From contig NZ_FSRT01000003.1 of the NCBI RefSeq assembly GCF_900143015.1, forward strand, positions 124,001 through 188,000: 64,000 nt of DNA, in the 5' to 3' direction. The first letter of the stretch is position 1. Each line of letters begins with the position of its first letter. This DNA comes from Fibrobacter sp. UWB11 (GTDB lineage: Bacteria; Fibrobacterota; Fibrobacteria; Fibrobacterales; Fibrobacteraceae). A model generated the notes under the pieces. The model was not told the origin of the DNA. It did not search any database and worked only from the letters and a program-made list of their open reading frames with translations. A program made the position numbers and the translations under genes. This document shows, piece by piece, positions 17,225 through 37,056 of the stretch.

Positions 17225-17254
17225 AAAAAAGAAGGCGGGGCGTACCCCGTCTTC
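17225..17254 (-). terminator. Cassette 1 terminator (shared GAAGACGGGG type)
   Basis: On the minus strand GAAGACGGGG pairs with CCCCGCCTTC (one G-U) around TACG and is followed by six T. It is preceded by CCTCGTGTGAG and TTAGGAGGAAATG, a ribosome-site-like sequence, also found before other cassette terminators. Confidence 0.85.
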
Positions 17255-17289
17255 TGTCCCTCATTTCCTCCTAACACTCACACGAGGGA

Positions 17290-19062
17290 TCAATCTTTCA
17301 TGCAACGGACGAACGAGGTCACAATGCCCACACCATAACCAACCTCAGGGTTACGCGGTTTATAGCTCCAGGCCCACAGCTGATATTGATAATCAGCCAA
17401 AAATTCTGGTTTCATAGCGAAATAAACATCGCCCTTCGTATCAACAAATCCGCTTTCTTCGTCTACCCGAGCAATAGTTTTCAATCCAAAGCCCGAGGGA
17501 TCGCCCAACAAGGTGTCACCCATGCTTATACCGTCTAAAAACTTCCACAAAGTTCTCCATTCTTTACCGGTCGGAATATGCCACCCATCAGGGCAAATTC
17601 CCTGAACATGACCGTCAGCTTTTTCAACAGAATCTGCCCATGCCGTAATTTTTTGTTCATTCAAATGCGTGTAATAACAAGATTCTCGAATTTGATTAGA
17701 ATCAATAACAGCAGCCCCTTCGTCCCGCCAATATTTGACATAATTCGCCACACACGTATCAAATACGTTTTCCCTTAAAAATGTCGTATCCAACATAAAC
17801 GCATCATAAGCCCTATACACGCCACCATAAACACCACAGCCCGACGATTCAGCAAGTTTAAGATCATCAAAGGCAAGATAATTCAGAGCATGATTTTTCG
17901 GTTTGAGATCAAGGCACCATTCCTTATGTTCACCATTTCCAAAATCCAAATTTTCCGCCATCACCGTCAGCGGCGAACCATCAATGTTATATGTAACAGT
18001 CTTGTACATTTTTCCATTACGGTTATCAGTCATCGTCCCAGTAGAATATCCTACCTGTTTGAATCCATTTTTTGTCATTTTCCATTGGGATTCATGGCAT
18101 TGAATACTGTAGTAACCTTCTTGAATTTCATAATTGGTACCTTCTTTTTCAGCAGTGCATTTGCCAAAGTCGTTCAAGGCAGACAAGAAATTTACCGCAA
18201 AGCGAATACGATTGTATGAATATTGGTAATAGTCTGTTTTGTCAATGGTTTCGTAGTATTCATAAGGAAGCTCTAGACCGAAATCGCCAACATCAATCTC
18301 GGATTCAGCCCAATTAATAAGCGCATCCTTAAGCCAGCTATCTAGATTTCTAAACATTCCGTTTTGGCCAAAAGACTCCGTCACCGGATCCACCACAACA
18401 TATATAAAATACGTCCCTACAAAATTCAAATAATCTTTAACATGTTCATCATCATTCTTGTCGTAATCAGGGGATTTGTCGTACATGCCAAAAGCATCCA
18501 AGACCTCGCGCTGAGCCATCGCCTTCGCGGAATCAAAAGGCACGCCAGACTGTACCAAGTAACGCAATCGGAAACTTTCGAAATGCGTGAGCAAGTTGAC
18601 ACTCACATTACTCGCCTTTCGCACATCAATAATCAATCTAGGACTAATTTGCATACGCGAACTTTTTGCGGGCTGAGTTTCAATCATCACATAGGGGCTT
18701 TTTAGCGATACACTGTCAAAGCTAAAGTTTCCATTCGTATCGAGAATATAACTCCTCCAAACTTTTCCCGTAGTATCAAGCGTCACCGAATCTAGCTCAT
18801 ACATTCTCACTTTGGACGCCAACTCGAAATTAAGAAACTCATTTTTTACGCCATTGTCCATATTCGACAAATTAACGGCACGTCCATCCACGTGAACGCA
18901 GTTCAAATCTACAACCAAAGACGTTTGAGCTGAACCTCCTTCAGTCCCCATCTGCGAAGACACAATCGGCGCTAAAGCATTAGCATCTTCATTAGAGCAA
19001 GCCAAAAGCATAAGCGGTAACGCGACGCAACCATAAACTATTTTCTTTTTCCAGTCAAACAT
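17290..19062 (-). CDS. FISUMP lipoprotein, second in cassette 1
   Basis: A 590-residue lipoprotein (PLMLLACS, Cys 22). After a short GG-containing linker comes a beta-sandwich-like domain with the family words MYELDSVTLDTTG and SLKSPYVMIE, then VDVRKASNVSV (IDVRKASNVSV), then a helical part with AMAQREVLDAFGMYD. The FISUMP domain runs from about residue 343 (MTDNRNGKMYKTVTY) through CPDGWHIPTGKEW to SFVRCMKD at the end. It follows the first lipoprotein of the cassette after eight bases, with TTAGGAGGAAG before the ATG. Location is outer membrane or surface by signal type. Function is unknown. Confidence 0.87.
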   Translation of the reverse strand: MFDWKKKIVYGCVALPLMLLACSNEDANALAPIVSSQMGTEGGSAQTSLVVDLNCVHVDGRAVNLSNMDNGVKNEFLNFELASKVRMYELDSVTLDTTGKVWRSYILDTNGNFSFDSVSLKSPYVMIETQPAKSSRMQISPRLIIDVRKASNVSVNLLTHFESFRLRYLVQSGVPFDSAKAMAQREVLDAFGMYDKSPDYDKNDDEHVKDYLNFVGTYFIYVVVDPVTESFGQNGMFRNLDSWLKDALINWAESEIDVGDFGLELPYEYYETIDKTDYYQYSYNRIRFAVNFLSALNDFGKCTAEKEGTNYEIQEGYYSIQCHESQWKMTKNGFKQVGYSTGTMTDNRNGKMYKTVTYNIDGSPLTVMAENLDFGNGEHKEWCLDLKPKNHALNYLAFDDLKLAESSGCGVYGGVYRAYDAFMLDTTFLRENVFDTCVANYVKYWRDEGAAVIDSNQIRESCYYTHLNEQKITAWADSVEKADGHVQGICPDGWHIPTGKEWRTLWKFLDGISMGDTLLGDPSGFGLKTIARVDEESGFVDTKGDVYFAMKPEFLADYQYQLWAWSYKPRNPEVGYGVGIVTSFVRCMKD

Positions 19063-19070
19063 ACTTCCTC

Positions 19071-21062
19071 CTAATCCTTAATGCAGCGGACAAACAAATT
19101 TTTATAATAAGGGTTAATCGAAACCACATCGTAACCAAATGAATACGCCGTATTCATCAGCGGTATTGATTTGATGTAACCGGTATAAGAGTTACTCATA
19201 TAACGATCATTCCAAATCACAATATACTCCGCCCGCTTTTTTTCAATTTTCAAAGAATGGTTACCAGCCCATTCCATCACAACAGTATTGTATAAATTAA
19301 ATCCAAACGGATCTCCTATAGAAGGCGCAGTAAGCAAGAAAGAAGCCTCAGTATTAGAATGCCATCTTTGATCAATGTATGTATAGACAGTTTCCCAATC
19401 ATCAACTGTGGGGATTCTCCAACCATCCGGGCATACGCCTTGAGTCCCAGCGAGACTATCCAAGTTCACCTTATTAACATCAATAAACTTCGACGTTTCA
19501 CTCATAATCTGTTCGCAGCGTTCCTGAATTTCCGCATCATATATAACTCGTAAAGAGTCTATATTAACGTGGATGGCGCCGCCATAATATTCACATTTTT
19601 CAATATCATATTCATCAGGTTCTTCCAATTCAGCAATACATTTTGCGATATACGCAGAATCGTACGGTATCGTATCTGTTGAATAGCGCTTAGATATGGA
19701 ATCCTTGCATTCTTGCATAGATTCATATTCACTAGTTAGAACAGATTCATCTAGCCCCACGACATCCAGCCAATTGTATCGACGGCCATAGATAGCGCAA
19801 TTTTGTTCATTATCATCGAGGCAACTTGTATTTACACCGCTATAATTCAGGTTCTCGGCCATCCATGTTTGCGTTTTATTGCCAAAGTCTATAGTTACAG
19901 TTTTGTAGACCTTACCATCGCGAGCATCCGTCATGGTTCCAAACGTATGGGGGACCTGTCCATAAGTCAAGTGCCAATTTCCTGAACGGCAAACGATTTT
20001 GAATTTCACATCATCCGAGCTATAAATTCCTCCAGTAACATCTACGGTTGTTTCTTCCAATTCGGAAGTGCATCGTCCAGATTCAAGCACAACAGACATC
20101 ATCCCTGCAAGGTATTTTTCATAAAGTAACATCGCTTGATATTCTTTCGCCACCTGCGGCCCCATGTTATCATAGACACCTTGCGGAATACTCAGCTTGA
20201 ACTTCAAATCTTTAACAACACTCATCACGCCGTTTTTCACAGTCTCTTTTCCTCTCATGAAAGTTCCCGTCTGTTCAAACGCTTTTGCAACAGAGGAAAC
20301 CTCCTTAGAATTTTCATAACCATACGAATTAAGCATGACTCTAACAAATACCGACTGCATCGCATAGTAATCAAGCCCCGAAACATCCAAACTGTCAAAT
20401 ACAATTCCATAAAGTCCAAAAGCTTCAAGAATTTCTCGTTTCGCTTGAGCCATCGCATCGGCAAAATCATTTCCAATCAACGTCAAAACACGCACACGAT
20501 ACGCTATCAAATCAGAGAAAATATCAACAGTAACAGGCGTTGTATCACGGACATCCACAAAGGCATTCAAGCTAAGCGTACTACCTTGTCCATCTTCACC
20601 ACATCCATAATATTCACAACTAACACTCATAGTTAAAGGTTTCCGTTCAACAGCCGTAATCCAGACATACGGAGACCTTAGCGTCACGCCCTGAATGTTG
20701 AACAAGCCGCCATCGTTATCAATCGTATCGGCATAAGACACGCCCGTTTTTTCGAGCGAATCGGCATCAAGTTCATAAAGAGTTACGATGGAACCCTTCG
20801 GCATTCCGCTTATAGACAGATCTACTTCTTGTTTAGAAGAATCCAACGGTTCGCGCCGCATACTTGCCATAGCAAGCCCCTTCACAGTAATATTTTCGAG
20901 CGAAGCTGTTTCTTCCGTAGAACCGCCCTCATGCGCTAACGGAGAATGATTAATTTCTTCGGAACAACCGACATACATCATAACAAGAGCAAACGCCATA
21001 ATCAAACAGAACGCAGCTCCAATAAAATCTCGCAACAGCGAGTTTTGTTTTGAATGCTTCAT
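19071..21062 (-). CDS. FISUMP lipoprotein, first in cassette 1
   Basis: A 663-residue lipoprotein (MMYVGCSE, Cys 33) with the GG-S-TEE linker motif right after the signal, the beta domain (LYELDADSLEKTG, LRSPYVWI), a VDVRDTTPVTV strand and helix words AQAKREILEAFGLYG. The FISUMP domain starts near residue 375 (GTMTDARDGKVYKTVTI, TWMAENLNY), contains a long acidic/Cys insert around YDIEKCEYYGG and ends LFVRCIKD. It begins nine bases after the regulator stop codon, with TTAGGAGGATATC before the ATG, so the two are surely one transcript. Confidence 0.87.
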   Translation of the reverse strand: MKHSKQNSLLRDFIGAAFCLIMAFALVMMYVGCSEEINHSPLAHEGGSTEETASLENITVKGLAMASMRREPLDSSKQEVDLSISGMPKGSIVTLYELDADSLEKTGVSYADTIDNDGGLFNIQGVTLRSPYVWITAVERKPLTMSVSCEYYGCGEDGQGSTLSLNAFVDVRDTTPVTVDIFSDLIAYRVRVLTLIGNDFADAMAQAKREILEAFGLYGIVFDSLDVSGLDYYAMQSVFVRVMLNSYGYENSKEVSSVAKAFEQTGTFMRGKETVKNGVMSVVKDLKFKLSIPQGVYDNMGPQVAKEYQAMLLYEKYLAGMMSVVLESGRCTSELEETTVDVTGGIYSSDDVKFKIVCRSGNWHLTYGQVPHTFGTMTDARDGKVYKTVTIDFGNKTQTWMAENLNYSGVNTSCLDDNEQNCAIYGRRYNWLDVVGLDESVLTSEYESMQECKDSISKRYSTDTIPYDSAYIAKCIAELEEPDEYDIEKCEYYGGAIHVNIDSLRVIYDAEIQERCEQIMSETSKFIDVNKVNLDSLAGTQGVCPDGWRIPTVDDWETVYTYIDQRWHSNTEASFLLTAPSIGDPFGFNLYNTVVMEWAGNHSLKIEKKRAEYIVIWNDRYMSNSYTGYIKSIPLMNTAYSFGYDVVSINPYYKNLFVRCIKD

Positions 21063-21071
21063 GATATCCTC

Positions 21072-21902
21072 CTAATCCTTATCAACACTCTTTTTTGTCA
21101 TCGGGAAAAACTGCACGTTCAAGCGATAAACTTCGTCGGCAGCATCATTTTTCGTTGCAATCGCAATAATTCTTTTACGGAATTCCGCAATTTCCTGAAC
21201 GATTTCATCGTATGCACTTTGAGTAATGCCAAGCGTAAGGCCCGAGAAATGGCGTTCTTTTTGCGGTACACCTTCGATTGCGTCAAGCGCAAATTCTCCC
21301 ATTTGGCGGTGCATTCCACGAACGGCCACAGGAGTCACATCCATGGGGCCGGTCGTCACAGATTTTTCAGTCTGTACGTAATTTCCGTCTTCGTCCTTTT
21401 GGAGCAAATTTGCCTTGATTAAAAAACTAAGCGATTCACTGACTTCGGCAGCGGTGATTTTAGGACGACAAGCACGAGCAAGAGCAAGCGGCTTTGCACC
21501 GGGCATCGCAGGAGCGAGTTCACGGAGCACCGGATTTTTCCAGCTGTCGAAATAACGGAACGAATCGCCTTCAATGATTCTGACTTTATGCACATCGGCA
21601 ATGGCAAGCATTCTATTGAAGGCAAACTTTTTTTCTTCGTCCGTTTTGGCGTGGTCGAACTTGACCATTTCGGCAAAATATTCTTGTTCGTAACCCGAAA
21701 GGCCCATCGCAAACGCGACTTGACCTGCGGTTTCTTCGCTCAAATTCGAGCGGCCTTCGCTCACGTATTTAAGGAACACAGGCGATGAAAATCCTGCCGC
21801 CTGCGTAAAAGTTTGCCAAGTAAACGCAGATTTCGCCTTTTTCTCGGCGTAGTAATCCGCGATGTACTGGTGGTAATTGGTGTACTCTAGTACATCCTTC
21901 AT
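21072..21902 (-). CDS. TIGR02147/DUF4423 regulator-like protein, cassette 1
   Basis: A 276-residue protein of the second-largest Fibrobacter paralogous family. It opens with the family signature MKDVLEYTNYHQYIADYYAE. Residues about 25-65 (WQTFTQAAGFSSPVFLKYVS, then NLSEETAGQVAFAMGLSGYE) look like a helix-turn-helix. The C-terminal DUF4423 part contains TTGPMDVTPVAVRGMH and ends with the common YRLNVQFFPMTKKS. No signal or membrane segment, so it is cytoplasmic. A transcriptional role is inferred from the HTH-like part and its place as first gene of the unit. AGGGGGG precedes the ATG at 21902; an upstream in-frame ATG seven codons earlier lies before this ribosome site. Confidence 0.87.
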   Translation of the reverse strand: MKDVLEYTNYHQYIADYYAEKKAKSAFTWQTFTQAAGFSSPVFLKYVSEGRSNLSEETAGQVAFAMGLSGYEQEYFAEMVKFDHAKTDEEKKFAFNRMLAIADVHKVRIIEGDSFRYFDSWKNPVLRELAPAMPGAKPLALARACRPKITAAEVSESLSFLIKANLLQKDEDGNYVQTEKSVTTGPMDVTPVAVRGMHRQMGEFALDAIEGVPQKERHFSGLTLGITQSAYDEIVQEIAEFRKRIIAIATKNDAADEVYRLNVQFFPMTKKSVDKD

Positions 21903-21960
21903 CGTATCCCCCCTACAGAACAACCTCTTGATCCGAAGACCCGTGTCGTTTCCAAATTGA

Positions 21961-21989
21961 AATATAATCTCTAAAATTTAAAAAGTCAA
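21961..21989 (-). promoter_or_regulatory. Cassette 1 promoter
   Basis: TTGACT and TATATT on the minus strand with a 17-base spacer, preceded by AACTA. The same layout occurs before all five TIGR02147 genes. Confidence 0.75.
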
Positions 21990-22234: not shown

Positions 22235-22253
22235 CTCTTCCGCCTTTGGCGTC

Positions 22254-22285
22254 AAAAAAAAGAAGGCGGGGCGAACCCCGTCTTC
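22254..22285 (-). terminator. Cassette 2 terminator
   Basis: GAAGACGGGG/CCCCGCCTTC hairpin with TTCG loop followed by a T-run on the minus strand; the preceding sequence is GTTAGGAGGAAAGG. Confidence 0.87.
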
Positions 22286-22324
22286 CCTTTCCTCCTAACA
22301 AATAATTGTATTACGTTTTAAGAT

Positions 22325-23992
22325 TTAGTCCTTGATGCAGCGAACATACGATTCAGCCATACTCGGAAATTCATCTCCATAGCAACTGTATCTATCTACC
22401 GCAGAGCATGCCCTATTGTATTCATCAACCACGTAAAAATCATACTCGTCCAAAGTCAGCCCAAATCCAGTCGGATTACCCAAGAAAGTACGATGCAAAT
22501 AATCCCCGACCAACCCTTTTCTGTCAATATTTTCGTGCTTCTTCGGAACAGTCGGATTATACCATTCCACCATATAATCCAGCAAAGAATCCATTTCCCC
22601 ACGCGTGGGAATATGCCAGCCATTGGGGCAAACGCCTTGATACACGCCCTTTTCAACCATAACAGAATCCATATGTTGACGATACTTCAATGTATCAAGA
22701 CTCCGTTCAAGGCCTTCTTCACACTCATTCCAGAAATCAGACTCTTCACACTCCGGGCAATCTTTCAAATGGCGCTGAAAGCACATTTCTCTTGTTTCAA
22801 TTATCGAAGTGTCCAAGCTAAAAGCGCCACCGACATCGTACATGCCACAACAGCTCGCTCGATGTTCGCAAGGCACCTGCAATTCAGAAGCGTTATAGTC
22901 CAAGCGTTCTGCGAGCCAAGTCTGCGTTTTTCCATTTATATCATAGGTCACGGTCTTATACGTTTTTCCATCACGTTCATCCGTCATCGTTCCCATGGAA
23001 TGTTTCATTTCTTTATACGAAAATTCCCATCCCTCTGAACGACATGTCAACATAATGTTTTTGTCGAGAATTTCAAAAGCTTTTCCCTCATTTTCCGCAG
23101 TGCACAAGCCCGCATCAAGCAAATGAGCTACGAAGGATTTCAAGAAGAGAAGATTCCGACGAGCTTTCTCAACAGACAGCACGGCATATTGATCCTGTTC
23201 TTCAACACTCTCCGCATAAGTCAAGATTTCGCTAAGCTCTTTTAGCATATTCAATGATTCTGTCAAAAAGCGTTTCTTCAAAAACTCCGTACCGCAAGTG
23301 AGATTGCCACACTTTTCAAGTTTCGCAACAACAGTATCTTCGGTCGTGTATTTCATAAAATCTTCGATAAACGCCATATAGATTCTATAGCTAGGATCCT
23401 GTACATTTTCAACTTCGGGTTTATCAAATAAATCAACATAAAAGCCAAACGACTCAAGAACTTCCTTGCTTGCCTGTTTTTTGGCTTCAGCAAAACTCAT
23501 TCCAGATTTCATCAGATAACGAGCTCGAATACTTTCAAAGTACGTCTTCTTGTCAACGGCAAAGGCATTCGCATCCCGAACATCAACAATATTATAGCGT
23601 CGATTGGAATAATCCGTCGAAAGCATAACATAAGGACTTTTCAAAGATAAACTATCAATAACAATGCTATCGATATCAGGAGTTACCAAATACAAAGGTT
23701 TACTACTAAAATTCCAACTATAAGGAACTCTTCTCGTGGTATCAAAAGTTACAGAATCAAGTTCATATATCTGAACAGACCCATATGGAGCAGTATAAAC
23801 GTTCATTCCCCTATAAACTACATCCGAGCCGTCAAACACAACACTCGAACTTGAAGCAGGAGCTTCATCGCTACTCGATGACAAACCATACGGCTCGCCC
23901 GAAGGAGCATTCGGCACCAAGCTATCGACTTCAGAACAAGCGATTAACGCAAGCGGCGTCAAAAACGCCATGAGCCACTTTTTAATATTCAT
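22325..23992 (-). CDS. FISUMP lipoprotein, second in cassette 2
   Basis: A 555-residue lipoprotein (LALIACSE, Cys 19). It differs from its relatives in having a serine linker (LSSSSDEAPASSSS) after the signal. The beta domain has IYELDSVTFDTT and SLKSPYVMLS, followed by VDVRDANAFAV and AKKQASKEVLESFGFYV. The FISUMP domain starts near residue 335 (GTMTDERDGKTYKTVTY, TWLAERLDY), contains a Cys-rich loop (MCFQRHLKDCPECEESDFW) and ends SYVRCIKD. AAAGGAGGAATG lies before the ATG. It follows the first lipoprotein of the cassette after 18 bases. Confidence 0.86.
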   Translation of the reverse strand: MNIKKWLMAFLTPLALIACSEVDSLVPNAPSGEPYGLSSSSDEAPASSSSVVFDGSDVVYRGMNVYTAPYGSVQIYELDSVTFDTTRRVPYSWNFSSKPLYLVTPDIDSIVIDSLSLKSPYVMLSTDYSNRRYNIVDVRDANAFAVDKKTYFESIRARYLMKSGMSFAEAKKQASKEVLESFGFYVDLFDKPEVENVQDPSYRIYMAFIEDFMKYTTEDTVVAKLEKCGNLTCGTEFLKKRFLTESLNMLKELSEILTYAESVEEQDQYAVLSVEKARRNLLFLKSFVAHLLDAGLCTAENEGKAFEILDKNIMLTCRSEGWEFSYKEMKHSMGTMTDERDGKTYKTVTYDINGKTQTWLAERLDYNASELQVPCEHRASCCGMYDVGGAFSLDTSIIETREMCFQRHLKDCPECEESDFWNECEEGLERSLDTLKYRQHMDSVMVEKGVYQGVCPNGWHIPTRGEMDSLLDYMVEWYNPTVPKKHENIDRKGLVGDYLHRTFLGNPTGFGLTLDEYDFYVVDEYNRACSAVDRYSCYGDEFPSMAESYVRCIKD

Positions 23993-24010: not shown

Positions 24011-25690
24011 TTAATCCTTAACACAACGAACAGAAACTTCATTTTCACCTAGATATTCTGATTGCGTAGCTTTAAATTTCGCTTTTCGACTTATATAAGT
24101 CCATTTAGTTCCATTGCTATAAATCGAGATTACCGTAGAATTCACAAGATCAGTATTATTTAAAACTTTAAACGTGCTATCAATTTTTACAGCATACTTA
24201 GCTCCAATTTTTTTATCAGATTCTCCAAATCCGGCAATCGCCATCATATCCATTCTATAATCCAACATGCGAACATTTACTTTTCCTTCCACATAAGCAC
24301 GCAACTTTTTCCATTCATTTGCATCTGGAAGATGCCATCCATCAGGACATATACCTTGATAGTTTTTCCCAGTCGCCTTGACAGAATCCGTTATAGCCCA
24401 AAGTCTCTCGTAATCAAGATTGCTTTTTTCCGCCTGCAGGCGATCGCAATTCGTATAAGAATCTTCTTCAATACAATCCTCATAAGGAATCAACGCAACA
24501 GAATCAGGCAAAGCCATTGCATCATTCCAGAAATAAATACCATCTGCAGATTTATACTTCAAATTTTCTGCAAGCCATGTTTGCGCACCGCCGTCAACAT
24601 TATATGTAACAGTCTTATATTTCGATCCATCACGGGAATCCGTCATTTCGCCCAAAATAGCACCGACACTATCAGGAACCACATAATGGACTAAATAGGA
24701 CCAAGCTCCATTTTTACAAACAAAATCAATATCTCTGTGTACATCATAGGTGAACGCAGTGCTATAGCCCTCATTTCCAGCAGAACACGGATCCAATTCC
24801 CACAAGCTCGCCATGAAGTTATGCATAAGGTCATGCAGACGAACCTTCACATCGTCGCCAATCCATTCGGCATCAAACCAGCTAACAATTCCTTCGACAA
24901 AGTCGTTCTTCACATTAGGTATTGCTTTAAAAGAGCCAGCTTTAGCAAACGCATTTGCCAAACCAGCCTCAGTTTTAGGTGTAAAGCCGACCACGTAACT
25001 CGCGAATAAGATTTCATCTTGATTTTCTTGAGACTCAGCCTTATCAAAACGATAAGGAACACCATAGATTCCCAAAGCACTGAGTATTTCACTTTCGGAT
25101 TGTCGTTTAGCATCCTCAAAACTCATTCCTTGGCCAATCAAGCCCAGCAGTCGTTTAGTCTCTATAGTCGTCGCCACATTGATACTGACATTCTTAACCT
25201 TTCGCAAATCAACTATCAAACTATACACCATATAATGAGTAGTTCCATTAACGACACAGCCGTCTATCCATCTACGTTCCTCATCCCCTATTCCGCATTC
25301 GTAAGGAGACAATTCGAGCATAACATAAGGGCTCTTTAGTGAAACGCTATCAAAGCTGAACTCGCCCGAAGTATCTTTAGATTGACTATAGTAAACCAAA
25401 CCCGTTGTGCTAAAATTGACAGAATCCAGTTCTGACATTCTTACAACAGAACCCACAGGAACTGAACTAACAAAATTGACCTTAGTAGTGTCATTTTCAT
25501 CAATTTTTGTTTCAAACAACCTTGCATACGCCACCACATTAATATTCTCAAGAGAAGCCTGTTCTTCTGTGTAACCGCCATCATGCGCAAGCGGAGAATT
25601 ACCAGGTTCTTCAGAACACGCTGCAAATATAAAGGCAAGCAGCATCGCCATTTTGCAGGCAATCTGCCCGCCAAATTTAGAGTAATTCAT
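24011..25690 (-). CDS. FISUMP lipoprotein, first in cassette 2
   Basis: A 559-residue lipoprotein (AFIFAACSE, Cys 25). The signal region MNYSKFGGQIACKMAMLLAF is nearly the same as those of the lipoproteins at 30032 and 34230, while the mature parts diverge. Beta domain words are MSELDSVNFSTTG and SLKSPYVMLE, then VDLRKVKNVSINV and AKRQSESEILSALGIYG. The FISUMP domain begins near residue 350 (EMTDSRDGSKYKTVTY, TWLAENLKY) and ends VSVRCVKD. It starts eight bases after the regulator stop with TTAGGAGGAATC before the ATG. Confidence 0.87.
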   Translation of the reverse strand: MNYSKFGGQIACKMAMLLAFIFAACSEEPGNSPLAHDGGYTEEQASLENINVVAYARLFETKIDENDTTKVNFVSSVPVGSVVRMSELDSVNFSTTGLVYYSQSKDTSGEFSFDSVSLKSPYVMLELSPYECGIGDEERRWIDGCVVNGTTHYMVYSLIVDLRKVKNVSINVATTIETKRLLGLIGQGMSFEDAKRQSESEILSALGIYGVPYRFDKAESQENQDEILFASYVVGFTPKTEAGLANAFAKAGSFKAIPNVKNDFVEGIVSWFDAEWIGDDVKVRLHDLMHNFMASLWELDPCSAGNEGYSTAFTYDVHRDIDFVCKNGAWSYLVHYVVPDSVGAILGEMTDSRDGSKYKTVTYNVDGGAQTWLAENLKYKSADGIYFWNDAMALPDSVALIPYEDCIEEDSYTNCDRLQAEKSNLDYERLWAITDSVKATGKNYQGICPDGWHLPDANEWKKLRAYVEGKVNVRMLDYRMDMMAIAGFGESDKKIGAKYAVKIDSTFKVLNNTDLVNSTVISIYSNGTKWTYISRKAKFKATQSEYLGENEVSVRCVKD

Positions 25691-25698: not shown

Positions 25699-26532
25699 CT
25701 AACCTTTTTTATTAATACTTTTATTTGTCATTGGGAAAAACTGCACATTCAAACGGTAGACTTCATCCATACCGTCATCTTGCGTCGCAATCGTAATAAT
25801 CCTCTTGCGAAATTCAGCGATTTCCTGAACAATTTTTTCGTAAGCATTGTGCGTGATACCAAGTGTAAGCCCCGAGAAATGGCGTTCATCTTGAGCAACG
25901 CCTTCAATGGCATCCAAAGCAAACTCACCCATCTGTCGATGCATTTCACGAACAGCAATAGGAGTCACCTCCATAGGGCCCGTCGTCACGCCTCTTTCGG
26001 TCTGCTTATAATTACCGTCTTTATCCTTTTTGAGCAAATCCGCCTTGACAAGGAAATTCAGCGCTTCGGTCACTTCGGCAGCCGTAACTTCTGGGCGGCA
26101 GGCACGGGCAAGCGCAAGCGGCTTTGCACCGGGCATCGCTGGGGCAAGTTCACGGAGCACCGGATTTTTCCAGCTTTCGAAATAGCGGAATGAATCACCT
26201 CCGATGATTTTCGCCTTGACAGTATCTGCAATCGAAAGCATTTTGCTAAAAGCGGCTTTTTTCTCGGCATCCGTTTTTGCGTTGTCAAACTTGACCATTT
26301 CGCAAAAGTAATCTTGTTCGTAGCCGGCAAGATGCATGGCCTGTGCCACGCGCAGTGCGGCAGCATCACTCAGGTTGAGCTTGCCTTCGCTCGCATACTT
26401 CAAATGAACCGGCGAAGAGAATCCCGCAGCCCGCGTGAACTCCTGCCAAGTGAACGCGGATTTGGCCTTTTTGTCGGCGTAGTAATCCGCAATATACTGA
26501 CGATAACTAGTGTATTCTAGTATATCTTTCAT
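25699..26532 (-). CDS. TIGR02147/DUF4423 regulator-like protein, cassette 2
   Basis: A 277-residue family member starting MKDILEYTSYRQYIADYYAD. The HTH-like region is WQEFTRAAGFSSPVHLKYAS plus NLSDAAALRVAQAMHLAGYE; the C-terminal part has TTGPMEVTPIAVREMH and YRLNVQFFPMTNKS. TTAGGAGGAAACC precedes the ATG. Sequence is very close to the cassette 1 and 3 paralogues, which argues for recent duplication or gene conversion. It may regulate its own operon or the shared promoter set; that is inference. Confidence 0.87.
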   Translation of the reverse strand: MKDILEYTSYRQYIADYYADKKAKSAFTWQEFTRAAGFSSPVHLKYASEGKLNLSDAAALRVAQAMHLAGYEQDYFCEMVKFDNAKTDAEKKAAFSKMLSIADTVKAKIIGGDSFRYFESWKNPVLRELAPAMPGAKPLALARACRPEVTAAEVTEALNFLVKADLLKKDKDGNYKQTERGVTTGPMEVTPIAVREMHRQMGEFALDAIEGVAQDERHFSGLTLGITHNAYEKIVQEIAEFRKRIITIATQDDGMDEVYRLNVQFFPMTNKSINKKG

Positions 26533-26591
26533 GGTTTCCTCCTAACACAAACAGCATCTCGACTTGTAAGTCCGTGCCGTTTACAAAACCA

Positions 26592-26620
26592 AATATAAAT
26601 CATAAATTTCAAAAAGTCAA
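26592..26620 (-). promoter_or_regulatory. Cassette 2 promoter
   Basis: TTGACT - 17 bases - TATATT on the minus strand, with AAAACTA just upstream of the -35 box. Upstream AT-rich words (AAAACGCTAA) are shared with cassette 1. Confidence 0.78.
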
Positions 26621-26730
26621 TAGTTTTATCATAAATTTTTAGCGTTTTTAGTAAAATTTAAGCAATTTTTAATAGACATCAAAATTTTAGCATATTTAGA
26701 TAATACAAATAAAGTATCAATTCAGAATAT

Positions 26731-26759
26731 AAAAAGAAGGCGGGCCGAAGCCCGTCTTC
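26731..26759 (-). terminator. Cassette 3 terminator
   Basis: GAAGACGGG/CCCGCCTTC hairpin followed by TTTTT on the minus strand, preceded by GTTAGGAGGAAAAGG. Confidence 0.87.
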
Positions 26760-26769
26760 CCTTTTCCTC

Positions 26770-26829
26770 CTAACCCTCACACGAGGGATTTATGACATTT
26801 TCGTCTGACGTACTCCCCATCATTTCCAT
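26770..26829 (-). CDS. Possible 19-residue peptide at the end of cassette 3
   Basis: ATG at 26829 is preceded by TTAGGAGGATAAT, as good a ribosome site as those of the cassette genes. The frame encodes MEMMGSTSDENVINPSCEG and stops inside the sequence GTTAGGAGGAAA that precedes the terminator. It could be a real small peptide, the decayed start of a lost gene, or chance. No equal peptide is visible in the other cassettes, although cassette 1 has a short ATG frame after its own TTAGGAGGAA. Confidence 0.3.
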   Translation of the reverse strand: MEMMGSTSDENVINPSCEG

Positions 26830-26870
26830 ATTATCCTCCTAATAAACAATGGTTTTTCGTTCTAAGAATT

Positions 26871-28868: not shown

Positions 28869-29702
28869 CTAATCCTTTTTTCCAACACTCTTTTTTGTTA
28901 ACGGGAAAAATTGCATATTCAAGCGGTACACTTCTTCGGTAACATCGCTCCGTCGTGCAATAGCAATAATGCGTTTGCGGCACTCAGCAATTTCCTGAAC
29001 AATTTCATCATAAGCATCACGCGTGATGCCAAGCGTAAGGCCCGAAAAATGACGTTCCGACTGCGCAACGCCTTCAATTGCCTCTAGCGCAAGCTCGCCC
29101 ATTTGATGATGCAATGTTCGAACCGCCACCGGGGTCGCCGTCAACGGGCCTGTTGTCACAGATTTTTCAGTCTGTACGTAATTTCCGTCTTCGTTCTTTT
29201 GTAACAAATTAGCCTTGAGCAAAAAATTCAATGAATCGCTGACTTCGGCGGCGGTAATCTTTGGGCGGCACGCATGAGCGAGCGCCAACGGCTTTGCACC
29301 GGGCATAGAGGGAGCAAGTTCACGGAGCACCGGATTTTTCCAGTCTTCGAAAAAGCGATACGAATCGGCCTCTATGATTTTCACTTTATGCGAATCTGCA
29401 ATCGCAAGCATCTTGTTGAAGAAAATCTTTTTTTCTTCGTCTGTCTTGGCGTGATCAAAATTGACCAATTCTCGGAAATATTCCTGTTCGTAATCAGCGA
29501 GAGACATTGCAGAAGCAACACGAGCAACTGCATTTTCACTCAGATTAAAGCGCCCGTCACTTACATACTTCAAGTAAACGGGCGAAGAGAAGCCCGCACT
29601 TTTGGCAAATTCCTGCCAGGTAAACGCAGATTTTGCCTTCTTTTCGGCATAGTAATCCGCGATATATTGGCGGTAGCTAGTATACTCTAGCACGTCTTTC
29701 AT
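28869..29702 (-). CDS. TIGR02147/DUF4423 regulator-like protein, cassette 3
   Basis: A 277-residue family member (MKDVLEYTSYRQYIADYYAE). HTH-like region WQEFAKSAGFSSPVYLKYVS with NLSENAVARVASAMSLADYE; C-terminal TTGPLTATPVAVRTLH and YRLNMQFFPLTKKS. TTAGGAGGAACAG precedes the ATG. It is co-directional with the lipoprotein nine bases downstream and has its own copy of the shared promoter. Confidence 0.87.
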   Translation of the reverse strand: MKDVLEYTSYRQYIADYYAEKKAKSAFTWQEFAKSAGFSSPVYLKYVSDGRFNLSENAVARVASAMSLADYEQEYFRELVNFDHAKTDEEKKIFFNKMLAIADSHKVKIIEADSYRFFEDWKNPVLRELAPSMPGAKPLALAHACRPKITAAEVSDSLNFLLKANLLQKNEDGNYVQTEKSVTTGPLTATPVAVRTLHHQMGELALEAIEGVAQSERHFSGLTLGITRDAYDEIVQEIAECRKRIIAIARRSDVTEEVYRLNMQFFPLTKKSVGKKD

Positions 29703-29771
29703 TCTGTTCCTCCTAACACAATGACCCCATAAATTCGCCTAAAGCAAAAAGCGGAATCATTTTCAAAAACA

Positions 29772-29800
29772 AATATACGATTAAAATTTCAAAAATGCAA
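29772..29800 (-). promoter_or_regulatory. Cassette 3 promoter
   Basis: TTGCAT - 17 bases - TATATT on the minus strand, preceded by AAAACTA as in the other cassettes. Confidence 0.75.
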
Positions 29801-29940
29801 TAGTTTTCACAATAAGAAAATGCAATTTTTATTAAAATTTCACAATTTATGTCAAAAATTCAAAAATTTTAATCAATTTTCACAATATACAGAAACAATA
29901 AAAAGACAACAGAAATCAATAAGCAATTGTAAAGATGACG

Positions 29941-29969
29941 AAAAAGAAGGCGGGGCGAACCCCGTCTTC
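29941..29969 (-). terminator. Cassette 4 terminator
   Basis: GAAGACGGGG/CCCCGCCTTC hairpin and TTTTT on the minus strand, preceded by TAAGGAGGAAAGG. Confidence 0.87.
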
Positions 29970-30031
29970 CCTTTCCTCCTTACACAAAAACTGACTCTTC
30001 CTATAAAATCACCCTTAAAAAAACGGGAGAA

Positions 30032-31831
30032 TCAATTTTTGATGCAACGGACATTCAGTTTATCTAAAGGAGGTATATTAAAATAGCTTTCTTCATATTC
30101 GCGATCCCCGGGAGTTCTAAATCCAAAGCCGTATCCGGTTGAATACCCTCCAAAGAATTGAACTCTAGACAAATGCTCATCCGTCACTACAAACATATCA
30201 TTAAAAACACCATTTTGACTCACAACAACACGGCCTTCATTATCCACAACAAGCCCTTCATGTGTACTATACAAACCAAACCCTGTCGCAGTCTCATCAT
30301 AAAGGACAGGCACGGCTTTAGCATAATCAACTCCATACTGTTCTCCCAAATTCTGCAACAAAGTTCTCCAGTCACTCGTAGTCGGAATACGCCAACCATC
30401 TGGACAAATTCCTTGATGAGCATTCAAATTCGACCGCAGCAAAGGATTGGTATAGACATAATCCCAATGCCCGCCAAGACTTCCTTGCATACAGGTTCCC
30501 GGGACAACTGAATCCAAGTCACCAGAAAATACTTTTAGACAATCCTGGTAAGAGACCGTATCCCCTCCTTGCCAACGGATCCAAAACATATTCACATCAT
30601 CCAACCCAATATCCATCGCGTGCAACCATACATATCGACCGTTCTCTCTGCAAGCGGCATAAGATTTATCAATATAATCTTGACATGCTGGGTGCGTAGA
30701 ATCCGCATAAACAAGGTCCTCCGCCATCCAAGTCTGCGATGTTCCGCCCAAATTATACGTCACCGTCTCATAAGATCTACCATCTCGATTATCGACCAAC
30801 AAACCCTTCGTATGTTCCACCGATTTAAAACCCATCGTCCACTTTTTAGAGCGGCACACCACATTAACATAATTTGGGGTATAAAAAAGTTTAATTTCGC
30901 CTACATCATTTTCACGCGCTTCAGTGCACTGACCCAATCCATCAACTTTAGCCAAGAAGCCTATTCTATAATCTATCATTTTCTTCATATTCTGATAATA
31001 TTTTTTCATTTGCGCATTCCCCATAAAATCTTTGGGAGAAACATAATTGCCCATCACATCCTTCCAAACAAGCATCTCGCGTGCACTTGAATCAGTATAT
31101 CGAATCAACTCATTCACATAAGACAATTCAGAATCATCATCAAACATTTTTTCAAACGAGCCCAAGTCTTCGTATATTCCATAATCTTCAAGAATTTTGC
31201 GTTCAGCCATTTGGCTCGCTTCAGCAAAGGTCTTTCCTTCGGCTATATATTTTTGCAAAAGCGGAACCTTAGCCGTCGTCAACGAATTAACACTTATTTT
31301 TTCTTTTTTTCGCAAATCCACAACAGCGCGAAATTCTTTCGCCTTTAACGTCCGTTCAAAGCACTGAGTTTCCGAAGAAGGATTTTCTAGCTTTTCGTAC
31401 CGTAGCTGATTTTCTACTAGTGGTAGCAGCCAATCGCTTACATACAGGCACGTATCACGGGCAGGCACAATTTCTTCAATCAATACATACGGGCTATCAA
31501 AATCAAGGCTATCAATCACAAAACGCCCTTCATCGTCATTAATCGAGCTAACAAAAGAACGTCCCGTCGTATCGAGCGTCAAGGAATCTAATTCATAAAC
31601 AGTGATAGAGCTGCCCTTAGGCGCCTGCATCGAATTTTCATCCACCGCCAATAACAATTTGGGATACACATCACCCACGCGACCAGCTAAAGCGTAAACG
31701 CCCTGTTCTTCGGCGGCACCGCCATGAGCACCATTTATCGGTGAATTGTCTTCGGAGCAAGCTGCGAACACAAAGGCGAGCAGCATCGCCATTTTGCAGA
31801 CAAATTGTCCGCTTATTTTTGAATAATTCAT
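30032..31831 (-). CDS. FISUMP lipoprotein of cassette 4
   Basis: A 599-residue lipoprotein (AFVFAACSE, Cys 25) with signal MNYSKISGQFVCKMAMLLAF. It shares YALAGRVGDVYPKLL after the linker with the cassette 5 protein. Beta domain VYELDSLTLDTTG and SPYVLIEE, then VDLRKKEKISVNSLTT and ASQMAERKILEDYGIYE. The FISUMP domain starts near residue 345; its first word is LLVDNRDGRSYETVTY where others have TMTDxRDGK. It then has TWMAEDLVY and CPDGWRIPTTSDW, and ends LNVRCIKN. CTAGGAGGAAACC precedes the ATG nine bases after the regulator. Confidence 0.87.
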   Translation of the reverse strand: MNYSKISGQFVCKMAMLLAFVFAACSEDNSPINGAHGGAAEEQGVYALAGRVGDVYPKLLLAVDENSMQAPKGSSITVYELDSLTLDTTGRSFVSSINDDEGRFVIDSLDFDSPYVLIEEIVPARDTCLYVSDWLLPLVENQLRYEKLENPSSETQCFERTLKAKEFRAVVDLRKKEKISVNSLTTAKVPLLQKYIAEGKTFAEASQMAERKILEDYGIYEDLGSFEKMFDDDSELSYVNELIRYTDSSAREMLVWKDVMGNYVSPKDFMGNAQMKKYYQNMKKMIDYRIGFLAKVDGLGQCTEARENDVGEIKLFYTPNYVNVVCRSKKWTMGFKSVEHTKGLLVDNRDGRSYETVTYNLGGTSQTWMAEDLVYADSTHPACQDYIDKSYAACRENGRYVWLHAMDIGLDDVNMFWIRWQGGDTVSYQDCLKVFSGDLDSVVPGTCMQGSLGGHWDYVYTNPLLRSNLNAHQGICPDGWRIPTTSDWRTLLQNLGEQYGVDYAKAVPVLYDETATGFGLYSTHEGLVVDNEGRVVVSQNGVFNDMFVVTDEHLSRVQFFGGYSTGYGFGFRTPGDREYEESYFNIPPLDKLNVRCIKN

Positions 31832-31840: not shown

Positions 31841-32674
31841 CTAGTCCTTTTTATTTAAACTTTTTTTCGTCATCGGGAAGAACTGCACGTTCAAACGATA
31901 GACTTCGTCTGTTGCAGGTTCACGAGTCGCAATCGCGATAATTTCTTTGCGGAATTCGGCAATTTTCTGCACGATTTCATCGTAAGCTTCGCGCGTGATA
32001 CCAAGCGTAAGACCTGAAAAATGTCGTTCGTCCTGTGGAACATTTTCAATGGCATCGAGAGCAAATTCGCCCATCTGGTGATGCAATCCACGAACCGCGA
32101 GCGGAGTGATATTCATAGGACCGGTCGTCACAACTTTTTCAGTTTGTGCGTAATTGCCATCTTTATCTCTTTTGAGAAGGTCCGCCTTGACCAAGAAATT
32201 AAGCGATTCAGAAACTTCTGCGGCTGTAACTTCGGGGCGGCAAGCATGAGCGAGCGCAAGCGGTTTTGCGCCAGGCATGGCGGGGGCAAGTTCACGGAGC
32301 ACCGGATTTTTCCAGTCTTCGAAAAAGCGGAACGATTCGCCTTCTAGGATTTTCGATTTGTGAGCATCGGCAATCGAGACCATCTTGCTGAACGCAGCAC
32401 GCTTTTCGGCATCGTTCTTTGCGTGGTCAAACTTGACCATTTCAACAAAGAAGTCGCATTCGAAATCTGCGAGACGCATGGAACGCGCCGTGCGAACCGC
32501 AGCTTCTTCGCTCAAGTTGAAGCGACCTTCACTAACATATTTAAGGTAAACCGGCGACGAGAACCCCGCCGCAGCGGCAAACTCCTGCCAGCTGAACGCA
32601 GACTTGGCCTTTCGATCGGCATAGTAATCTGCGATATACTGGCGGTAGTCCGTATATTCAAGTATATCTTTCAT
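31841..32674 (-). CDS. TIGR02147/DUF4423 regulator-like protein, cassette 4
   Basis: A 277-residue family member (MKDILEYTDYRQYIADYYAD). HTH-like region WQEFAAAAGFSSPVYLKYVS with NLSEEAAVRTARSMRLADFE; C-terminal TTGPMNITPLAVRGLH and YRLNVQFFPMTKKS. AAGGAGGAAAA precedes the ATG. First gene of its unit, driven by the shared-type promoter at 32729-32757 and divergent from the GSCFA gene. Confidence 0.87.
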   Translation of the reverse strand: MKDILEYTDYRQYIADYYADRKAKSAFSWQEFAAAAGFSSPVYLKYVSEGRFNLSEEAAVRTARSMRLADFECDFFVEMVKFDHAKNDAEKRAAFSKMVSIADAHKSKILEGESFRFFEDWKNPVLRELAPAMPGAKPLALAHACRPEVTAAEVSESLNFLVKADLLKRDKDGNYAQTEKVVTTGPMNITPLAVRGLHHQMGEFALDAIENVPQDERHFSGLTLGITREAYDEIVQKIAEFRKEIIAIATREPATDEVYRLNVQFFPMTKKSLNKKD

Positions 32675-32728
32675 TTTTCCTCCTTACAAAACGGCCTCTT
32701 ATTTGGCGTACCGTTTGCAGATGTTACA

Positions 32729-32757
32729 AATATAGCCTCGTTTTCTACAAAAATCAA
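32729..32757 (-). promoter_or_regulatory. Cassette 4 promoter
   Basis: TTGATT - 17 bases - TATATT on the minus strand, preceded by AAAACTA. The remaining bases up to the GSCFA gene (32760-32974) are AT-rich, then GC-richer from about 32860, with no further gene seen. Confidence 0.75.
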
Positions 32758-34069: not shown

Positions 34070-34071
34070 AA

Positions 34072-34101
34072 GGAGATTCCCCGTCGGAGCGGGGAATGAC
34101 A
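34072..34101. repeat. Dispersed GGAGAT..ATGACA palindrome
   Basis: GGAGATTCCCCG and CGGGGAATGACA flank a four-base loop-like centre. It lies just after the GSCFA stop; a related CTTCGGCGT..GGATGACG word follows at 34117-34145. Confidence 0.75.
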
Positions 34102-34159
34102 TGCAAGATTTTACCAAACCCTTCGGCGTTTCACGCCTCAGGATGACGCATGACAATGC

Positions 34160-34188
34160 AAAAAGAAGGCGGGCCGAAGCCCGTCTTC
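34160..34188 (-). terminator. Cassette 5 terminator
   Basis: GAAGACGGG/CCCGCCTTC hairpin and TTTTT on the minus strand, preceded by GTTAGGAGGAAAAGG. Confidence 0.87.
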
Positions 34189-34229
34189 CCTTTTCCTCCT
34201 AACAGTATTTCCGTTAAGTTTTCATTGGT

Positions 34230-36092
34230 TTAGTTTTTGATGCAGCGGACAGCGGCAGAAGTATACGGATCGGCCAAAGAACTCTGACGCATTTCTGGAT
34301 TATTGTATTTGTAAAGAAGGACGTGCCACCTATCCGGATAAGACAGATTGAACCCACTGAATTTTTTCCACATGTTGAAAAATTCAGCCGTATAATAGGA
34401 AGCATCTGCCATGACAAAATAATTGTAAAAACTAAAACCTTGCACTACCACATGATCAAATTCTACGCCCAAAATCTTTGCAATATTATTCAATCCAAAA
34501 CCAGTTGCGGCCTCATCATACAGCACCATCACAACGTTTCCATAATCAACGCCATATTGTTCGCCCAAATTTTGCAACAAAGTCAACCAATCTTCAAGCG
34601 TTGGAATTCTCCATCCATCCGGACAAATTCCTTGATAAGAATTTTGATTCGAAGGCGTAATAAAGTCTGAATAATTCCAAGTCCACGTCCTCGAAGAATT
34701 TTCTTCCGAATCATTTTCACCATACAATATAGTACCACAAGAATCTTCAACAGCCTCTGCAGAATCCCCAGGAAGAAGACTACGATTACGAATTGCATCC
34801 ATGCATTTTTCACTTACTAGCAACGAATCGCCCTGAGCACCAACTGAATACGATTTTATATCATCGTCTCCGATATTCATTGCAGCCCTCCACAGATATT
34901 CATGTCCATAAGCACCACACCCTTCTTCATCATTATCCAAATAAGGTTCATGGTAGCAATATATACTTCCAGACAAATTCGCCCTTAACGAACTGTCAAC
35001 ACTCAAAGATGCCGTATCCGTAAAATCAAGATTTTCAGTCATCCATGTCTGCGAAGTTCCGCCAAAATTATACGTTACGGTCTTATACGTTTTTCCATCG
35101 CGGTTATCCGTCATAGTGCCCTTGGTATGTTCAACCGCTTTAAAGCCCATGGCCCATTTTCCAGAACGGCACACAACAGCAATATCACCGATGCGCCCCT
35201 TTACCATACTAGCCTCATTTTCGCGAGATTCAGTACAACGTCCTAAACTATCGATATGTGCCAAATAACCAATATCATAATCAATCATTTTCATAGAATT
35301 CAAATAGTACCGCTCCATTATCTCGCTTTTAGAGAACTCCTTGGGCGACATAAAAGAAAGAACAACACCCATAGTTTCCACATAATGACGCACATTGAGT
35401 TCATCTAACTGAGAGAGTTCATTTACAAAATCTAATTCGGAACCGTTTTCAGGCATTTCTTCAAAAGTTCCTAAATCCTCATATATTCCGAAACCTTCAA
35501 GGATTTCATGCTCAGCCATCTTTCCCGCTTCGGCAAAAGACTTGCCTTCTGCAAAATATTTCTGCAAAAGTGGGACTTTCATCGTTGTCAAGGTACTGAC
35601 ATTTACATTTTTCACGTTTCGCAAATCTACTATCGCGCTGTAGTTATAATACGTATAAACTATAGTACCCCGTTTATTGCGAGCGTCAGAAGGATACGCA
35701 TGCTCTCCAATTAACACATACGGGCTTCTTAGATTCATTTCTTTAAATTCAAAGCGGCCACTATCGTTATCTACGGTATCCTTAAAAAAGCGACCTGTCG
35801 TATCGAGAGTCAATGAATCGAGTTCATAAACAATTATAATCGATCCTTTTTCCGCAAACACCGAGCCTTCATATTTTGCAGTATCAGTGGGTTCTCCCGA
35901 TGGATCCGCCACTTTCAGCAACTTCGGATATACATCACCCACGCGACCCGCCAAAGCATAGACTCCCGTTTCTTCGACGGTACCGCCGGCAACGTTGTTT
36001 CCTGAATTTGTTTCCGAGCACGCTGCGAACATAAAGGCGAGCAGCATCGCCATTTTGCAGACAAGTTGTCCGCTAATTTTTAAGTAATTCAT
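34230..36092 (-). CDS. FISUMP lipoprotein of cassette 5
   Basis: A 620-residue lipoprotein (AFMFAACSE, Cys 25) with signal MNYLKISGQLVCKMAMLLAF and GG-TVEETG linker, then YALAGRVGDVYPKLL as in cassette 4. Beta domain VYELDSLTLDTTG and LRSPYVLIG, then VDLRNVKNVNVSTLTT and AGKMAEHEILEGFGIYE. The FISUMP domain starts near residue 327 (GTMTDNRDGKTYKTVTY, TWMTENLDF), with CPDGWRIPTLEDW and final AAVRCIKN. The gap to the regulator is 14 bases with CTGGAGGAAACA before the ATG. Confidence 0.87.
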   Translation of the reverse strand: MNYLKISGQLVCKMAMLLAFMFAACSETNSGNNVAGGTVEETGVYALAGRVGDVYPKLLKVADPSGEPTDTAKYEGSVFAEKGSIIIVYELDSLTLDTTGRFFKDTVDNDSGRFEFKEMNLRSPYVLIGEHAYPSDARNKRGTIVYTYYNYSAIVDLRNVKNVNVSTLTTMKVPLLQKYFAEGKSFAEAGKMAEHEILEGFGIYEDLGTFEEMPENGSELDFVNELSQLDELNVRHYVETMGVVLSFMSPKEFSKSEIMERYYLNSMKMIDYDIGYLAHIDSLGRCTESRENEASMVKGRIGDIAVVCRSGKWAMGFKAVEHTKGTMTDNRDGKTYKTVTYNFGGTSQTWMTENLDFTDTASLSVDSSLRANLSGSIYCYHEPYLDNDEEGCGAYGHEYLWRAAMNIGDDDIKSYSVGAQGDSLLVSEKCMDAIRNRSLLPGDSAEAVEDSCGTILYGENDSEENSSRTWTWNYSDFITPSNQNSYQGICPDGWRIPTLEDWLTLLQNLGEQYGVDYGNVVMVLYDEAATGFGLNNIAKILGVEFDHVVVQGFSFYNYFVMADASYYTAEFFNMWKKFSGFNLSYPDRWHVLLYKYNNPEMRQSSLADPYTSAAVRCIKN

Positions 36093-36106
36093 TGTTTCCT
36101 CCAGCT

Positions 36107-36937
36107 CTATTTTTTTAATTCTTGTTTCTGTGTCAGCGGGAAAAGCTGCATGTTCAGGCGATAGACTTCGTCTGTGGCCGCATTTTTCCGAGCAATGGCA
36201 ACAACCCTTTTACGGCAATCAGCAATTTCTTGCACGATTTCATCGTAGCCGTCTTTCGTGATACCGAACGTGACACCGGAAAAATTTCGTTTATCCGGAG
36301 AAACACCTTCAATCGCCTCAAGCGCGAGTTCACCCATTTGGCGGTGCATCGTGCGAACAGCCACAGGCGTTACCGCCATGGGGCCCGTTGTCAAGGATTT
36401 TTCCGTTTGTACGTAATTACCTTCGGCATTTTTAACCAAGAAGCCACCTTTGACAAGGAAATTAAGCACTTCGCTGACTTCAGCAGCGGTGATTTCAGGG
36501 CGGCATGCATGAGCAAGCGCAAGCGGCTTTGCACCTGGCATTGATGGAGCAAGTTCACGGATGACTGGATTTTTCCAACTTTCAAAAAAGCGAAATGCAT
36601 CGCCTTCCAATATTTTTGCTTTGTGAGCGTCTGCAATCGCAAGCATCTTGCTGAACGCAGCCTTCTTTTCATCATCCGTTTTTGCATGGTCAAAATGGAC
36701 CATTTCGGTGAAATATTCGCGTTCATAATCGACCAAGCGCATGGCATCTGCCACGCGAGCTGTCGCCGAATCGCTCAAGTTAAAGCGGCCTTCGCTCACG
36801 TATTTCAGATAAACACGCGAAGAAAAACCAGCTTCGGTCGCGAACGTCTGCCACGTAAATGCAGAACTCGCCTTTTTATCAGCGTAGTAGTCCGCAATAT
36901 ACTGGCGATAGCTCGTATATTCTAGTATTTCTTTCAT
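36107..36937 (-). CDS. TIGR02147/DUF4423 regulator-like protein, cassette 5
   Basis: A 276-residue family member (MKEILEYTSYRQYIADYYAD). HTH-like region WQTFATEAGFSSRVYLKYVS with NLSDSATARVADAMRLVDYE; C-terminal TTGPMAVTPVAVRTMH and YRLNMQLFPLTQKQ. AAGGAGGAAAA precedes the ATG. It is the most upstream unit of the array and slightly more divergent at both ends than the others. Confidence 0.87.
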   Translation of the reverse strand: MKEILEYTSYRQYIADYYADKKASSAFTWQTFATEAGFSSRVYLKYVSEGRFNLSDSATARVADAMRLVDYEREYFTEMVHFDHAKTDDEKKAAFSKMLAIADAHKAKILEGDAFRFFESWKNPVIRELAPSMPGAKPLALAHACRPEITAAEVSEVLNFLVKGGFLVKNAEGNYVQTEKSLTTGPMAVTPVAVRTMHRQMGELALEAIEGVSPDKRNFSGVTFGITKDGYDEIVQEIADCRKRVVAIARKNAATDEVYRLNMQLFPLTQKQELKK

Positions 36938-37027
36938 TTTTCCTCCTTACGACAATCCCCAAATTTTTTCAGGGTCCGTAAAAAAACGAATTGCGGCTCT
37001 TTTTCGTCCGTTTCGTTCCTGAAATCA

Positions 37028-37056
37028 AATATACAACATATTTTTCAAAAACACAA
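37028..37056 (-). promoter_or_regulatory. Cassette 5 promoter
   Basis: TTGTGT - 17 bases - TATATT on the minus strand, preceded by AAAACTA. Confidence 0.72.

Follow-up and report, generated by a model that had tools for sequence, protein, structure and literature searches.

Five tandem TIGR02147-lipoprotein cassettes in Fibrobacter sp. UWB11 and the pairing of regulator and lipoprotein genes across the Fibrobacterota

The array of five cassettes

The present work concerns a 64,000-nucleotide (nt) stretch of the genome of Fibrobacter sp. UWB11 (NCBI RefSeq assembly GCF_900143015.1, contig NZ_FSRT01000003.1, positions 124,001 to 188,000; hereafter the window, whose own coordinates are used below), in which five tandem gene cassettes, here termed units A to E, occupy positions 17225-37056. 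All five lie on the minus strand and consist of a promoter, a gene of the TIGR02147 (Fsuc_second)/DUF4423 family, one or two lipoprotein genes with a FISUMP domain (TIGR02145/PF09603, Fib_succ_major) and a terminator. An initial annotation had proposed five such regulator-lipoprotein units, and gene coordinates together with profile searches bore them out.

The TIGR02147 genes, identified by whole-genome profile search, are located at 21072-21902 (unit A), 25699-26532 (unit B), 28869-29702 (unit C), 31841-32674 (unit D) and 36107-36937 (unit E), with the ATG at 21902 as the start of the unit A gene, correcting the TTG at 21923 of the open reading frame list. All five exceeded the curated TIGR02147 cut-off (50) over the full profile and are members of this family by score; the unit A regulator reached 313 bits, and its C-terminal DUF4423 domain (PF14394) scored 112.6 bits versus a gathering score of 30. 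The lipoprotein genes begin 8-18 nt past the end of the preceding gene and lie at 19071-21062 and 17290-19062 (unit A), 24011-25690 and 22325-23992 (unit B), 26871-28859 (unit C), 30032-31831 (unit D) and 34230-36092 (unit E). All seven products carry the FISUMP domain, at the C-terminus in both unit A proteins, and exceed the TIGR02145 cut-off of 41.65, with 53.8-104 bits.

Each unit ends in a terminator (17225-17254, 22256-22285, 26730-26759, 29940-29969 and 34159-34188 for units A to E). The corresponding pattern, GAAGACGGG[GC]T[AT]CG[GC]CCCGCCTTC, occurs five times in 349 kb of this genome and nowhere outside the array, so that what had been annotated as a near-identical terminator turned out to be array-specific. 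The direct repeats within the array show tandem duplication, which would have included the terminators and been followed by a much faster divergence of the lipoproteins than of the regulators: identity between array paralogues is 70-79% for the regulators and 30-52% for the first lipoproteins. To judge by these sequence comparisons, the difference does fit diversifying surface proteins. Besides, a Shine-Dalgarno-like AGGAGGAAA immediately precedes the terminator hairpin in four of the five units, with no obvious gene behind it (minus strand 3' ends 17225-17290, 22256-22325, 26730-26871, 29940-30032 and 34159-34230), and is possibly a remnant of the duplication.

Pairing of TIGR02147 genes with tail-bearing lipoproteins

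Whole-genome profile searches returned 39 TIGR02147 genes and 99 FISUMP matches. When we inspected the neighbourhoods of all 39 genes, calling lipoproteins by a simple rule (a hydrophobic stretch plus a [GAS]C lipobox), a lipoprotein started between -14 and +14 nt from the regulator stop in 38 of them, and the lipobox cysteine and hydrophobic stretch were present in every partner. With identical automatic gene calls on both sides, a close downstream lipoprotein followed 36/36 TIGR02147 genes versus 10/39 of the other genes that have a co-directional gene close by (Fisher p 1e-12); as the initial annotation had held, the pairing is not due to chance. Its choice of FISUMP as the partner, on the other hand, did not hold and is rejected here as the defining feature, since a FISUMP match lies within 2 kb downstream of only 10/39 TIGR02147 genes. 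Most FISUMP proteins of this genome are unpaired with TIGR02147, and most TIGR02147 partners lack FISUMP. Two distant genomes, which have 9 and 13 TIGR02147 genes, each encode a single FISUMP protein, in both cases on a contig that lacks a TIGR02147 gene. What stands is the functional pairing of regulator and lipoprotein, which extends throughout the phylum and was kept in one case of swapped gene order (see below); the real partner of TIGR02147 is a lipoprotein bearing an AG(G)xxExxN tail.

This tail directly follows the lipobox. The mature N-terminus of the partners consists of the cysteine, a short spacer and then AG(G)xxExxN or a variant, with little overall similarity otherwise; in unit E, lipobox and tail (AAC|SETNSGNNVAGGTVEETG) are encoded at 35949-36050 (minus strand). 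The GG-T-EE linker noted in the initial annotation was borne out, residues G36, G37, E40 and E41 being invariant in 34 homologues. A loose expression for the tail matched 184/201 partners versus 15% of random stretches from the same proteins. We further built a profile from 27 partner N-termini and searched it against the whole genome: 30/30 matches at E<=1.5e-5 fell in TIGR02147 operons, four of them being second or later lipoproteins on which the profile had not been trained, while the next, weaker matches opened outside such operons were ordinary lipoboxes. Within this genome the tail is thus exclusive to TIGR02147 operons. In distant genomes the same profile missed most known partners, which lie beyond its reach. 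Third codon positions vary freely, which rules out a nucleotide element and implies that the constraint acts on the protein.

Behind the tail the partners are diverse. Their lengths range from 198 to 778 residues, and domain searches (n=38, E<=0.01) yielded 12 CarboxypepD_reg, 10 FISUMP, two Laminin_G_3, two CIA30, one pectate lyase and one CBM_4_9 domain. As modelled (predicted local distance difference test score, pLDDT, 77.7), the unit E lipoprotein comprises a disordered tail, a transthyretin/prealbumin-like domain (residues ~43-168), a helical domain and a FISUMP portion. Residues ~43-168 matched pilin, transthyretin and rhamnogalacturonan lyase chains at Z about 6-8.5, and Foldseek returned no match to the model at E<=0.001. 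As CarboxypepD_reg, SpaA and fn3_3 are similar sandwich domains, many partners may share a common plan of tail, sandwich and variable module. Judging from the pectate lyase, carbohydrate-binding and laminin-G modules, substrate adhesion by the partners is plausible. The initial annotation had also considered antigenic diversification, for which we found no mechanism: a diversity-generating retroelement is not indicated, the genome giving no RVT_1 reverse transcriptase match, and neither is phase variation by slippage, given that the tandem repeats are short and low-copy and no suitable ones were found.

The pairing is not confined to this genome. TIGR02147 was found in 141/151 sampled Fibrobacterota genomes, and a lipoprotein follows 201/208 TIGR02147 genes, 200/201 of them within 20 nt. 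These loci, a partly redundant sample, stem from this genome (beyond the five window units), its genus, named Fibrobacter contigs, and genomes of other genera, families and classes. Among the seven exceptions, two in L098 involve frameshift-like lipoproteins with an identical junction in two cassettes, which points to a probable chimeric assembly rather than phase variation; L157 belongs to a Bacteroidales-labelled record and is a short contig; and in L107 the gene is divided over two frames. One of two exceptional genes of genome G067 (L083:583-2355) has its order swapped, with a lipoprotein bearing IAGGSGTETPN immediately upstream of TIGR02147, so that the pair is retained. The second gene of G067 (L064) and locus L024 (L024:1980-2828) of the present genome are taken up below; the neighbours of L024 encode large secreted proteins with a basic tail end, KGRRFEKQIPYRVMF. 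Nearly all sampled genomes of genus g5 have one TIGR02147 gene, and in both of those inspected the next gene encodes a lipoprotein whose tail reads AGG(G)TSEETNALA.

Some further observations concern this distribution and the surroundings of the array. Genera g22 (G066, G068, G070, G080, G082, G096, G097, G106) and g18 (G062, G086) gave no TIGR02147 match and their same-family relatives several; this absence is a secondary loss and provides a natural negative control. Fibrobacter-type TIGR02147 genes on short contigs, one match per genome, were also met in records labelled Treponema sp. UBA4326 (L101) and Bacteroidales (L157, RUG14682), which are probably misbinned Fibrobacter. In the window, a GSCFA-family gene (PF08885; 32975-34069, plus strand) breaks the array, separating unit D from unit E, and a similar one separates two cassettes at L098:7806-8936. 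A small FISUMP lipoprotein that has neither a TIGR02147 gene nor the tail motif is encoded beyond the array at 15688-16215 (minus strand).

Promoters, leaders and predicted regulator fold

The promoter layout that the initial annotation had seen in common is present in each of the five units as ACTATTG-N~20-TATATTT (21959-21989 in unit A, with its TTG-N-TATATTT; 26590-26620, 29770-29800, 32727-32757 and 37026-37056 in units B to E). It is shared beyond the array: TATTG-N14-22-TANNTT was found upstream of 17/39 TIGR02147 genes versus 2/91 other genes, and the motif ATTTTTnnTAAAAAT, trained on 20 non-array promoters, gave scores of 7.5-11.9 for the five array promoters, which had been held out; the 95th percentile was 6.7 in other genes and 5.6 in shuffled promoters. 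Upstream of the -35 lie phased A/T-rich repeats that form a putative operator region, at 29801-29900 (minus strand) in unit C and with the same layout in the other units. In array-type promoters, TTGTRAAAA recurs at about -10, -31, -52 and -82 upstream of the -35, with AAAATTTT in between, and these repeats gave 114 matches versus 13 in block shuffles. A single exact palindromic operator was sought over the 39 promoters and rejected, there being no 6-base dyad common to at least four of them.

A -10-like TAnnTT[TA] box ends 3-9 nt before the start codon in 21/39 TIGR02147 versus 15/202 other genes (Fisher p 1e-10; examples are L001:2001 on the plus and L014:7307 and L026:7301 on the minus strand). 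This spacing predicts leaderless mRNAs, which are probably enriched in the TIGR02147 family. Unlike these genes, the array units possess leaders, some 50-90 nt long, that contain a Shine-Dalgarno site and a stem-loop: 21903-21954 in unit A (where the site is purine-rich and Shine-Dalgarno-like), 26533-26585 in unit B, 29703-29765 in unit C, 32675-32722 in unit D and 36938-37021 in unit E, the latter with two stem-loops. Across 22 array-type leaders, 89% of cells in the two-part stem-loop were paired, versus 24-47% in slid controls, and 8/11 pairs had changed on both sides. G.U cells outnumbered A.C cells (28:12 and 70:34; shuffles 773:701), which favours an RNA stem over a DNA palindrome, and we therefore discarded the inverted repeat as a DNA operator; the rows of the alignment are related and p-values are only indicative. 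Single-sequence folds were modest, that of unit A being no better than shuffles, and an Rfam search gave no match. As the preferred reading, the stem-loop, from which the Shine-Dalgarno site lies apart, probably stabilises the array mRNAs; it may also be regulatory.

For the regulator itself, the unit C model (pLDDT 87.5) supports the prediction of an Xre-type helix-turn-helix (HTH) plus winged-helix fold, in line with the HTH-like regulator of the initial annotation as far as a model can tell. Residues 7-90 resemble the HTH domains of HigA, P22 c2, 434 Cro and DdrO (Z 6-9), and residues 111-188 the winged helices of ArsR and MarR proteins (Z about 6); a sequence search found no significant PDB relative. 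Over 25 main-clade paralogues, few parts of the protein are as well conserved as the HTH recognition region, and the recognition helices of the five array regulators are near-identical. With the promoter sites in common, this leads us to expect cross-regulation, and cross-talk probably takes place inside the array.

Interpretation, rival explanations and known systems

We consider TIGR02147 proteins to be one-component regulators of their own lipoprotein operons, a reading to which we assign a probability of roughly 55%. On this view, each unit would be a single operon within a large, self-regulated system of surface lipoproteins of the Fibrobacterota. Its first gene would encode a cytoplasmic transcription regulator composed of an Xre-type HTH, a second domain of winged-helix type and an alpha/beta C-terminus. 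By binding the putative phased A/T-rich sites directly in front of its own -35, this protein might switch the operon, neighbouring lipoprotein included, in response to a signal. The lipoprotein gene, directly behind at translational-coupling distance and joined by further lipoprotein genes in some operons, would yield a product that is exported, lipidated at the cysteine and presumably displayed on the surface, with a flexible AG(G)xxExxN tail, in many cases a transthyretin/prealbumin-like domain, and a C-terminal module that varies (FISUMP in the array).

Several results weigh against this interpretation. L024 is the sole TIGR02147 gene of this genome without an adjoining lipoprotein, and L064 likewise lacks an adjacent one. 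Regulators and partners co-diverge to a modest degree (Spearman 0.24), Foldseek alone found no significant PDB match for the regulator model at E<=0.001, and the operator-like sites, being A/T-rich, could represent curved DNA or an UP element instead.

Other explanations share part of the evidence. The tail could be an address for sorting or surface export, the regulators merely marking a lipoprotein class in need of control, with no interaction between regulator and tail. Its position right after the lipidated cysteine and its modelled disorder recall known lipoprotein surface-export signals, and it also occurs in the second and third lipoproteins of tandem sets, which have no regulator to themselves; yet a tail alone does not explain the nearly one-to-one pairing, so that we find this rather unlikely, compatible as it is with our one-component model. 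Alternatively, the regulator might act post-transcriptionally by binding the nascent or unexported prolipoprotein, at its signal peptide plus tail, or the mRNA, thereby matching production to export, with the tail as recognition element. Against the two predicted DNA-binding-type HTH domains, the common promoter architecture and the many leaderless cassettes without a stem-loop, such a mechanism is unlikely, even if the tail is almost exclusive to TIGR02147 operons and constrained as protein, stop and start codons lie at coupling distance and the array leaders contain a conserved RNA stem-loop. An antigenic-variation or allelic-exclusion locus, with regulators repressing each other's cassettes and one or few lipoproteins displayed per cell, is quite improbable as a reading of the array: the similar regulators, the divergent lipoproteins and the operator-like sites common to the units would suit this, whereas each unit has a complete promoter and terminator of its own and our searches of this genome gave neither a reverse transcriptase nor slippage repeats.

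Two further possibilities carry hardly any weight. HigA antitoxins are the best structural matches of the HTH, which recalls toxin-antitoxin pairs with the antitoxin gene first; however, that match spans a generic HTH also present in phage repressors, and the partners, instead of being a small intracellular toxin, are multidomain lipoproteins that are exported and in many cases possess binding or enzyme modules; several operons include extra lipoproteins. Neutral tandem duplication of one gene pair without any functional link takes up the clear tandem origin of the array, but is contradicted by the pairing in all but one of 34 further dispersed copies and in distant families and classes, and by its survival of an order swap. 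Beyond the one-component model, one may think of a phylum-specific mode of surface display with tens of cassettes per genome, in which the tail serves as an address tag and a cross-talking TIGR02147 network chooses the lipoproteins displayed, expression being coupled to export or substrate contact, unlike Sus, extracytoplasmic function sigma factor (ECF)/FecR or two-component control; this extension is doubtful at present.

The TIGR02147/DUF4423 family had no assigned function, and a literature search, with most subscription journals outside its coverage, found no paper on it or on its lipoprotein pairing; the pairing, the tail, the promoter type and the predicted fold are contributed here. 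TIGR02145 has been proposed as a cohesin analogue (PMC4704652), and FISUMP resembles DUF1566 and occurs in target proteins of diversity-generating retroelements (PMC4159848). The FISUMP protein FSU_2794 was listed for cellulose-grown, not glucose-grown, cells (PMC4619616). In another study, 40/49 quantified lipoproteins fell on cellulose, those with CarboxypepD_reg being among the lower proteins, and several CarboxypepD_reg lipoproteins were classed under peptidoglycan biogenesis (PMC6851124); since 12/38 partners contain this domain, these lipoproteins deserve re-examination. In the genome of F. succinogenes S85, the transcription regulators that could be recognised near cellulase genes were few, and control of degradation genes was left open (PMC3079729). 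The pairing points to some 39 regulators that had gone unrecognised in the present genome and, on a first look, to as many as 88 candidates in a second one, each linked to a defined lipoprotein, which makes this question directly testable. Our data suggest dozens of self-controlled surface-protein modules, with previously overlooked regulators, in this plant-fibre degrader and throughout its phylum, and offer a rule for choosing likely surface proteins from Fibrobacterota genomes.

Among known systems, the Sus-type glycan loci of Bacteroidota combine many paralogous local regulators with adjacent surface lipoproteins for glycans. The TIGR02147 cassettes share the former trait, each regulator lying next to presumed surface lipoproteins, yet lack TonB-dependent transporters, sigma factors and membrane sensors and employ an unrelated regulator family. 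Closer to the regulators themselves are the autoregulated Xre-type one-component operons of phage repressors, C proteins and HigA, which likewise feature an HTH regulator first in its own operon and operator-like repeats at the promoter. From these, the TIGR02147 cassettes are set apart by the predicted second winged helix and alpha/beta C-terminus, by the exported lipoprotein as partner and by tens of paralogues per genome.

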